From Phormidium tanganyikae FI6-MK23 (GTDB lineage Bacteria > Cyanobacteriota > Cyanobacteriia > Leptolyngbyales > Leptolyngbyaceae): DNA of 64,000 bases. The position numbers were made by a program, and so were the translations under genes. The notes below the pieces were generated by a model. The model worked only from the letters and a program-made list of their open reading frames with translations. It was not told where the DNA came from and did not search any database. How positions within the stretch are numbered: position 1 is the stretch's first letter; each line of letters begins with the position of its first letter. Of the stretch, positions 23,399-28,797 are shown piece by piece. The DNA lies in assembly GCA_019359175.1 (NCBI GenBank), contig JAHHHU010000008.1, forward strand, positions 1 through 64,000, in the 5' to 3' direction.

Positions 23399-24478
23399 AT
23401 GATTGACGCAATTATCATCATCTCATTCATCCTAGCAGGGGCGGGAACTGGCTTCCGAGGCATCGAAGCATTGCCTGGAAGTGTGCTGCAACAAGTCTCA
23501 AATCCAGATGCACTGCGCTGGGTTTGCGGCGGATTCGGCGCGATTTTCGGTTTAGCGATCGGTCTTGCCGCTCAAACTGGTTTTCGTCGGCTCGAACGCC
23601 AAATTCGGCAGCTTCCAGCGTATACCTTGCTCAGTCGCGCGATCGGTCTGGTCATGGGGCTATTGGTTGCTAACTTGCTCCTCGCGCCGACGTTCCTACT
23701 GCCGATCCCACCCGAATTCTCGTTTCTCAAACCGCTTACTGCTGTGGTGGGTAGCATTATGTTTGCGGCTTCAGGAATGTCACTTGCCGATGTGCATGGT
23801 CGATCGCTGTTGCGCTTGCTCAATCCTAGTAGTGCTGAGACGCTTTTGCTCTCAGAAGGAACAATTAAAGCCGCAGCGACCAAAGTTCTCGATACAAGCT
23901 GCATTATCGATGGTCGGATTGCCGATCTGCTGGATACTGGATTTCTTGAAGGACAGTTACTTGTACCGCAGTTTATTCTGCAAGAACTTCAGCAAGTTGC
24001 GGATGCTTCTAATGATCAAAAACGAGTCCGGGGACGACGGGGACTTGATATTCTCACTCGCATTCGGGAAAGTTATCCCGATCGCGTTGTGATTCACCCC
24101 GCAGATTACGAGGATATCCCGACAGTCGATGCAAAACTGGTTCGACTCGTTCAAGAAATTAATGGCACATTGTTGACCACCGATTACAACCTGAATAAAG
24201 TTGCAACCGTTCAGAAAGTTCCTGTTCTAAATGTTAACGATTTGACTCAGGCGATTCGTCCGTCTTACCTACCCGGAGACAGCATCGATCTGAAGATTCT
24301 GCGAGAAGGAAAAGAACCCACTCAAGGAATTGGCTATCTCGATGATGGAACCATGGTCGTGGTTGAGGATGGTCGCAATCATGTTGGTGGAGAACTACAA
24401 GTTACTGTTACCAGCTCTCTGCAAACGTCCGCAGGTCGAATGATTTTTGCCAAACTGAAAGCTTCAGCTTTAGCGTAA
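23399..24478 (+). CDS. PIN/TRAM domain membrane protein (YacL-like)
   Basis: 359 residues. Four hydrophobic segments occupy the first 130 residues, then a PIN domain (KVLDTSCIIDGRIADLLDTG, later LLTTDYNLNKVA) with conserved acidic residues, and a C-terminal TRAM domain (GKEPTQGIGYLDDGTMVVVE). This is the YacL-type architecture: a membrane-anchored putative ribonuclease with an RNA-binding domain. Widespread in cyanobacteria; the substrate is unknown. A zinc-ribbon micro-gene begins 4 bases after its stop. Confidence 0.9.
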   Translation: MIDAIIIISFILAGAGTGFRGIEALPGSVLQQVSNPDALRWVCGGFGAIFGLAIGLAAQTGFRRLERQIRQLPAYTLLSRAIGLVMGLLVANLLLAPTFLLPIPPEFSFLKPLTAVVGSIMFAASGMSLADVHGRSLLRLLNPSSAETLLLSEGTIKAAATKVLDTSCIIDGRIADLLDTGFLEGQLLVPQFILQELQQVADASNDQKRVRGRRGLDILTRIRESYPDRVVIHPADYEDIPTVDAKLVRLVQEINGTLLTTDYNLNKVATVQKVPVLNVNDLTQAIRPSYLPGDSIDLKILREGKEPTQGIGYLDDGTMVVVEDGRNHVGGELQVTVTSSLQTSAGRMIFAKLKASALA

Positions 24479-24482
24479 AACC

Positions 24483-24662
24483 ATGAGCCGCGATCGAGAA
24501 AAAATTTGTTCTCTGTGTGCAAAATCCGCTCCCGTTCTCTACCGTATTCAATACGATGAGTCCGCTGAGTGGATTTTTGTTTGTCGAGACTGTTAGGAGC
24601 GTGTGAGCCAAAACAACCCGTTCTATGTTTACGGCGGCACTTGGAAAGCGCACAAACGATAA
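24483..24662 (+). pseudogene. Small zinc-ribbon protein gene interrupted by in-frame TAG
   Basis: ATG 24483 opens a frame with two CxxC pairs (EKICSLCAKSAP and FVCRDC). It stops at TAG 24594-24596 after 37 codons. In the same frame the sequence continues ERVSQNNPFYVYGGTWKAHK to TAA 24660-24662, giving 59 codons in total. Related short cyanobacterial proteins, as I recall them, keep this C-terminal FYVYGGTWKA motif and usually have Trp where the TAG is (TGG to TAG). Either a recent nonsense mutation, a sequencing error, or amber readthrough. Confidence 0.6.
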
Positions 24663-24737
24663 AATCTCCACAGTATTGGTTGTGCTTTGAGAATCTGTCT
24701 TCTACGATCGCACTGATCATCCTTCACCGATTTGTCC

Positions 24738-25589
24738 ATGATTTTGACTCCCGCCCACCTGACCGAGATCCGGCACATTGTTCGATCGTGTGGACAACAA
24801 GCCAAAACCCTTTCCGTTCAGAACTACGAAATTTTTCAGAAAGAACCCGGCGATTTTGTTACGACAGTGGATCAGACGCTCGATCGACAACTTTCCGAAT
24901 TCTTCGCAAACCTCTTTCCCGATGATGGCGTGATCACTGAAGAGAATGCTGCTTCTCGAAAACACTATCAAGTTGATTACCCTCGATTTTGGTGTATTGA
25001 TCCGCTTGATGGCACACAGGACTTTATTCATGGTGATCCCGATTACGCGGTGATGGTGGGATTATTGGAGAATCAGATTCCGATCGCAGGTTGGATCTAT
25101 GCGCCTGAAAAAGATGCACTGTATTACGGCGGAAAAGCATTAGGAGTCTGGCAAGCATTGGGAGATGGAGCGCCAGAACTTTGTGAAATTCCAGCAGCGC
25201 GGGTGAATTCGTTTCGCGTGATTATTGGCGATAAGGATTTCAAAAATACTGCTGCGAAAATTTCTGCTTCGATTCCTGAAATTGATTTTTTGCGATCGCC
25301 CGGTAGTTTCGGACTGAAAGTGATGAACGTAGTGCTGGGAAAAGCCGAGGTGTATTTGTATCTCAATCGGCGGGTTAAGCTTTGGGATACGGTGTCCCCG
25401 ATCGCGATCGCGCAAGCAGCAGGGTTGATGTGTTGCGATTTGGAAGGCAATCAGATTCAGTTCACACCGGAGGTCTTAGATCTCGAAAGTTTGGCGCATC
25501 GGCAAGCGATCGTCATTGGGCAAGCGGATGTAGTCGAAGCCCTTTTACCGCGTTTGAGAGCGGTGCTCGATCCCCAACTTTCGCTGTGA
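24738..25589 (+). CDS. 3'(2'),5'-bisphosphate nucleotidase / inositol monophosphatase family enzyme
   Basis: 283 residues from ATG 24738 (TTG 24732 is also in frame). The lithium-sensitive phosphatase motifs are present: VITEENAAS, CIDPLDGTQDFIHG and LWDTVSPIAIAQAAG, which supply the Mg ligands. In cyanobacteria such proteins act as CysQ-like PAP phosphatases, inositol phosphatases or sugar bisphosphatases; DGTQDF rather than DGTxNF favours the CysQ/SAL1-like side. Its stop codon lies inside a CRP-type palindrome preceding the Crp-family gene. Confidence 0.82.
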   Translation: MILTPAHLTEIRHIVRSCGQQAKTLSVQNYEIFQKEPGDFVTTVDQTLDRQLSEFFANLFPDDGVITEENAASRKHYQVDYPRFWCIDPLDGTQDFIHGDPDYAVMVGLLENQIPIAGWIYAPEKDALYYGGKALGVWQALGDGAPELCEIPAARVNSFRVIIGDKDFKNTAAKISASIPEIDFLRSPGSFGLKVMNVVLGKAEVYLYLNRRVKLWDTVSPIAIAQAAGLMCCDLEGNQIQFTPEVLDLESLAHRQAIVIGQADVVEALLPRLRAVLDPQLSL

Positions 25590-28224: not shown

Positions 28225-28797
28225 ATGATTGCAATTGCACCCCAAGAAACCTCAGCCCCATCTGAAGAATTGCCCTCTAAGCCATTCACATTAGAGGATT
28301 TCGTAGAGCAGTCTCCTCAAGACATGGAATGGGTAGACGGAAAATTAGTTGAGAAGACAGGAATGACAGTTCAGCACGCATTAGCTCAAAGTAAACTTGT
28401 CACTCACTGGAACAATTATAGTGCTACGCATGAGCCAGGAGGAGAAGCTCTAACCGAAGCACCTTGTAGAACGCTGAAGCAGGGAAGAAGACCTGATATT
28501 GCTTATTTGCCACCCAGTGTTTTTGCTCAAGTTAGACAGCTTAAAACTGCACCGCAAAGCTACCCTTTGATCGCGGAAGTTGCTTCACCAACAGATTATG
28601 CAGAAGAACTATTTGCGAAAGCAATCGAGTATTTAGAATCTGGTTGCGAAGAAGTTTGGCTCGTCTTTCCTGAAGCAAAGCTGATCATGGTGAAAACGAT
28701 CGAGCAATCTTGGCAAGTTTTCAGCGCAGGACAAACGATCGCAACTCAGAAAGTTCTCAGCGGCTTTAGTATTGCTGTTGATCAAGTTTTTGCTTAG
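28225..28797 (+). CDS. Uma2-family (DUF820) putative endonuclease
   Basis: 190 residues. The PD-(D/E)XK-like core shows RRPDIAYLPPSVF, YPLIAEVASPTDYAEELFAK and YLESGCEEVWLVFPE. This is the shorter Uma2 form, without the charged C-terminal helix of the copy at 13782, so the two are not recent duplicates. Located 24 bases after the M61 gene on the same strand; its stop overlaps the convergent S66 peptidase stop by 4 bases. Function of the family unknown. Confidence 0.85.
   Translation: MIAIAPQETSAPSEELPSKPFTLEDFVEQSPQDMEWVDGKLVEKTGMTVQHALAQSKLVTHWNNYSATHEPGGEALTEAPCRTLKQGRRPDIAYLPPSVFAQVRQLKTAPQSYPLIAEVASPTDYAEELFAKAIEYLESGCEEVWLVFPEAKLIMVKTIEQSWQVFSAGQTIATQKVLSGFSIAVDQVFA

Follow-up and report, generated by a model that had tools for sequence, protein, structure and literature searches.

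A recent nonsense mutation has most likely ended a small uncharacterised gene of Phormidium tanganyikae FI6-MK23, converting TGG to TAG at codon 38 of 59. We regard the gene as dispensable and its interrupted copy as an early stage of a decay that has recurred in the family. The copy lies in the window, by which we mean the whole 64,000-nucleotide stretch analyzed here. The window forms the start of contig C4 in a genome of 5.74 Mb (77 contigs, 96.3% complete), and a search of this genome gave no clear second copy of the small gene, the best match having 29% identity at E 0.87. The reading frame opens with ATG at 24483, runs through codons 1–37, meets TAG as codon 38 through an altered base at position 24595, and then continues through codons 39–59 to a TAA. 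Codons 39–59 encode ERVSQNNPFYVYGGTWKAHKR, which includes FYVYGGTWKA, and the 21 sense codons after TAG close with ...NPFYVYGGTWKAHKR before the TAA. Only 4 bases separate the stop of the upstream PIN/TRAM gene from the ATG of the small gene. The features of the locus are as follows.

23399..24478, + strand: PIN + TRAM domain gene, upstream neighbor (from domain matches)
24483..24662, + strand: small gene, entire frame; 59 codons and a closing TAA, with the premature stop at codon 38
24483..24593, + strand: head; 37 codons, covering the two CxxC pairs as well as invariant R21 and W30
24594..24596, + strand: in-frame TAG; TGG in seven other genomes of the genus
24595..24605, + strand: candidate restart site, badly spaced; AGGAG, 3 bases, then GTG in the tail frame, with a putative function at most
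24597..24659, + strand: preserved tail; 21 codons, six of them for residues invariant in the family
24660..24662, + strand: original TAA stop (from the sequence)
24732..25589, + strand: inositol monophosphatase family gene, downstream neighbor (ORF as listed; ATG at 24738)

The first-pass annotation of this DNA had proposed that the frame belongs to a real family, that the tail beyond the stop is undamaged, and that the usual residue at the stop is tryptophan. All three proposals held when we examined the relatives. A DNA search located the small gene in all eight genomes of the genus, and in the seven other than the window's the frame is open across both sides of codon 38, with 81–92% amino acid identity to the window frame over residues 1–59 (5–59 in G004). 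The nearest named relative found was cyanobacterium LEGE 13415, at 92% amino acid identity. Codon 38 is TGG in each of the seven, and a relative that also stops here and lacks the tail motif was not found among them. More widely, the codon could be read in 58 loci, where it was TGG in 55, GGG in one, TTA in one, and TAG in the window alone; the pattern used for this tally allowed stops and fitted 58 of 85 loci, leaving out 27, and one genome may be counted twice. Among 113 distinct open copies, a set built with a pattern that excludes stops so that stops are not countable in it, residue 38 was Trp in 98 (95 by script and 3 by eye), with Gln in four, Cys in three, Gly, Leu, and Arg in two each, and Thr and Tyr in one each. 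Tryptophan is thus usual at this position, and other residues are tolerated. No other relative whose codon was read had a stop at codon 38. We also note a copy with an FYVYGGTWKG end (L055, 2495–2656) in a contig labeled as a Flavobacteriales MAG, which may reflect transfer or a mis-binned contig.

Next, we considered what the tail contributes to the protein. In an alignment of 63 relatives, C9, C12, R21, W30, C34, C37, Y48, Y50, G51, G52, T53, and K55 are invariant and W54 is nearly so. All 12 invariant residues are present in the window frame if the TAG is passed over. Searches of curated families with this frame returned four Pfam rows, all below cut-off, and no NCBIfam row, and the 63 members searched against curated families at E 0.01 yielded scattered weak names, each in at most five members. 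For the intact protein of LEGE 13415, AlphaFold2 with the 63-sequence alignment gave a model (mean pLDDT 84.8) that has strands at residues 18–23 and 30–33, a helix at 35–42, and a strand at 49–55, giving the order CxxC, β-hairpin, second CxxC at the helix start, and third strand. One CxxC before a hairpin and another at a helix start resemble the layout of a treble clef. From the four invariant cysteines and the predicted model, we conclude that the uninterrupted gene probably encodes a zinc finger of treble-clef-like form. The first-pass label of "zinc ribbon" was loose, as the predicted order is more treble-clef-like. Foldseek found no match to the predicted model in the PDB at E 0.001 or better. 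In a second look, the best PDB entry reached Z 4.7 (8ro0_q, rmsd 2.2, 47 aligned residues) and B-box and ZZ domains reached Z 4.4–4.5, where a Z below 8 can reflect no more than a widespread arrangement of elements. A PDB sequence search with the family profile gave a best E of 0.051, to RPB9 zinc ribbons. The protein could serve as a zinc-stabilized module that binds a partner, perhaps RNA or another protein.

The stop falls inside the predicted helix, and the fourth cysteine is the final residue of the head. A product cut here would lack the greater part of the helix beyond the second CxxC and also the last strand, which carries YGGTWK. With these elements cut off, the model implies that the 37-residue product is probably inactive. 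Folded without an alignment, the head alone was modeled poorly (mean pLDDT 59.7), which proves little.

The domain was also seen outside the small gene. Four cyanobacteria of a single genus with small genomes (G188, G235, G421, and G266; L228–L231) carry a YGGTRK form of it at the C-terminal end of a longer open frame. In G188 the small domain follows an N-terminal DUF924 (PF06041, E 8.7e-49), and the frames of G235, G421, and G266 resemble this fusion by eye. Our literature search found nothing on the YGGTWK small gene, on DUF924, or on DUF924 in cyanobacteria, and one motif pattern of the family had no matches in viral contigs.

The state of the tail then allowed us to constrain the age of the stop. 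Half of the invariant family residues lie here (Y48, Y50, G51, G52, T53, and K55) and all six are kept, as is the proper TAA. The only window-specific amino acid change in the tail is at codon 39, by eye, with Asp or Asn in relatives and Glu here. The window's terminal branch measures 0.34 substitutions per fourfold site, based on the fourfold sites of two neighboring genes (231 columns, eight genomes). Without selection over the entire branch, about 16 tail changes would be expected against the one observed, and the probability of at most one change under neutrality is about 1e-6. At the 5% level, selection on the tail can have been absent for at most 0.27–0.30 of the branch, an estimate that treats the fourfold rate as neutral, ignores the error of that rate, and comes out the same for a young stop, an error, or readthrough. 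One tail change against about 16 expected, together with the open frames of the relatives, indicates that the stop is young or is an error. If it is young, the tail would be intact because there has been little time for decay.

The wider distribution of the small gene is patchy. At E 0.001, it matched in 31 of 58 relatives. In a phylum-wide sample at the same threshold, 67 of 386 genomes had a match and 319 had none, and the gene is therefore dispensable at large. By family, matches were found in 29 of 42 genomes of the window's family (f1), 86 of 217 in f28, 32 of 61 in f29, and 6 of 6 in f32. Dispensability extends to the window's own family, where 13 of 42 genomes had no match and 3 of the 29 matched copies are damaged. 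Among members of the genus it looks like a useful gene, as an open copy persists in all seven other genomes.

Where the gene persists, it is often broken. Across f1, f28, and f29, 31 of 147 matched genomes carry a damaged copy (3 of 29, 15 of 86, and 13 of 32, respectively), although these are not all independent events, as some stubs may descend from one ancestral event. Damage in these three families was read by eye in partial or stop-bearing copies, and full-length, stop-free rows were counted as intact unread. One further damaged copy comes from f32 (1 of 6, G110). The three in f1 are the window copy, G010, in which the tail is broken, and G019, in which the head is lost. Elsewhere, the invariant Trp30 is replaced by TGA in a Nodularia MAG (by coordinates G515) and in G110 (L171, 1501–1677), a nearly complete genome whose frame is otherwise open, and stops at W30 are present in G617 and G626 too. 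The stops at tryptophans other than the window's (L052, L171, G617, and G626) were all at W30, with no recurrent stop seen at codon 38. G115 has a stop within the head. Frameshifts interrupt the copies in G248, G379, G497, G623, and G630, and extra DNA splits the gene in G503 (~1.45 kb), G631 (1.7 kb), and, with shorter stretches, G475, G595, and G640. The second Cys pair is lost in G178, G475, and G624, and tails are lost in G600 and G638. N-terminal stubs include those of G440, G456, G469, G510, G516, G526, G536, G559, and G621. The inserts in L219 (G503) and L270 (G631) are perhaps transposons. G615, a candidate for this list, was rejected and counted as intact, its stop being its normal end.

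The upstream neighbor provided an internal comparison. In f1, f28, and f29, all 31 damaged copies sit immediately downstream of a PIN/TRAM gene end. The PIN/TRAM protein is practically complete and in one piece in 18 of these (the window, G010, G019, G178, and 14 in f28), and in the other 13 the fetched piece holds only its end. Among the 113 open copies, a PIN/TRAM end was found within 600 nt upstream in 62 and not within that distance in 51, the latter partly through short loci or a gene located elsewhere. As a control run in f1 and f29, we searched with a 60-residue piece of PIN/TRAM, which matched in 40 of 42 and 58 of 61 genomes, respectively, with no stops in 98 matches; the sole partial match begins 51 bases into its contig. 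Because this control is intact in the same genomes, the damage is a feature of the small gene and not of poor assemblies.

Taken together, damage has repeatedly destroyed this gene in other cyanobacteria while the neighbor stayed whole, and the window copy would represent an early stage of that process. Repeated loss with remnants left in place makes plain pseudogenization the expected reading. It is tempered by the open copies in the seven other genus members, by the tolerance of other residues at position 38, and by the fact that the damaged copies elsewhere are not all independent.

We then weighed the possibility that one base of the assembly is wrong, with the strain truly carrying TGG and the gene being intact. 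A single substitution in one genome, followed by a perfectly kept tail, is the expected look of an error, and an assembly of 77 contigs at 96.3% completeness leaves room for one. Other established genes of the window, however, had no clear internal break in 82 comparisons covering 22,528 aligned residues, drawn from the longest non-overlapping ORFs compared with the ORFs of three relatives, with genes repeated between these. The non-overlap filter also dropped the small gene itself, likely through a longer overlapping ORF, so other small genes may be missed in this comparison. Eight rows flagged as possible damage were set aside as gene ends, sequence upstream of the window gene's start, an antisense shadow frame, or a short weak ORF. 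Separately, at 28785–28796 on the − strand, a window gene is four codons shorter at its end than the matching genes of two relatives, which carry Gln where it has a stop. The ORF comparisons speak for a sound sequence and do not prove the single base. The frequency of damage to the small gene beside an intact neighbor also makes a real mutation unsurprising a priori. Overall, we consider an error unlikely.

Under readthrough, Trp or some other residue would be inserted at TAG with enough frequency to give a working full-length protein, and selection would keep the tail. The purifying selection on the tail along the window's branch fits this reading. So does the argument of Belinky et al. 2021 (PMC7918605) that many bacterial in-frame stops are short-lived, keep a dN/dS below 1, and may be partly and briefly read through. 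Against it, none of the 46 ARAGORN-typed tRNAs among 47 tRNA matches in the own genome had a CUA anticodon; the search scored 150 of 348 candidates in a 96.3%-complete genome, and a CUA tRNA could be missed. Release factor gene prfA is present (515.8 bits against a cut-off of 423.25), and TAG is an ordinary stop, ending 14 of 52 matched window ORFs alongside 21 with TAA and 17 with TGA, a few of these ORFs probably being shadow frames. A structured readthrough element was rejected, since the predicted RNA fold around TAG does not improve on that of shuffled sequences (z 0.73), and no relative read has a stop at codon 38. Of the options first offered for this stop, which were that it is recent, an error, or read through, the first two agree with the tail count, while the last has neither a CUA tRNA among the matches found nor an RNA structure in its favor, and we judge it very improbable. 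A reassigned TAG or a suppressor tRNA was rejected on the same grounds, with no CUA found, prfA present, and TAG ending 14 of 52 ORFs. During the tRNA search, we observed a tight nine-tRNA array near one contig end (L126, contig C40, 189–946) and two further tRNA genes near another (L124, contig C37, 132–294). Many of their anticodons repeat others in the genome, and the arrangement resembles a tRNA array carried by a plasmid or mobile element.

A related and similarly remote idea is that Trp codons of the small zinc-finger gene acquire transient stops that turn its protein down reversibly, leaving a trickle of full-length product by readthrough, and that the frequent damage reflects on-off selection and not simple loss. 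The window TAG at W38 and the TGA at W30 in both G110 and the Nodularia MAG all have intact tails.

Least probable of all is that the split gene still works in two parts, with a 37-residue Cys4 peptide from the head and, after a restart at GTG 24603, a tail peptide of 19 residues. None of the four cysteines is missing from the head and AGGAG at 24595–24599 precedes this GTG in the tail frame, but the two are 3 bases apart, a short spacing for a Shine-Dalgarno site, the fourth Cys is the head's last residue, the stop cuts the predicted helix, and the head alone has no confident fold, this last being weak evidence from a prediction made without an alignment.

With a young nonsense mutation as the preferred reading, the window gene in itself is one more young pseudogene with an ordinary mechanism. 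Of wider interest is a small family, matched by none of the curated Pfam or NCBIfam models searched and joined to DUF924 in some small-genome cyanobacteria, that is strongly conserved where it survives and repeatedly destroyed beside an intact neighbor. What favors keeping or losing the small gene across lineages is a testable question.

Several known systems provide context. In its predicted element order, the protein is like the treble-clef, ZZ, and B-box-like zinc folds of the PDB, with weak matches (Z ≤4.7). It is also like the one-domain zinc-finger micro-proteins of prokaryotes (Haloferax, PMC6562870) in being small, single-domain, and zinc-finger-like, a likeness of description. As an in-frame TAG amid purifying selection, the stop is like those of Belinky et al. 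2021 (PMC7918605), which are said there to be short-lived. It is unlike the stops common to at least two species on which that work focuses, as it occurs in one genome and had no readthrough feature found. The closest parallel is with recent bacterial premature-stop pseudogenes, which share one substitution, an otherwise intact frame, open close relatives, and further-decayed copies elsewhere. From these the window gene differs in nothing essential, though it is unusually small and its family is unusually often damaged in place.
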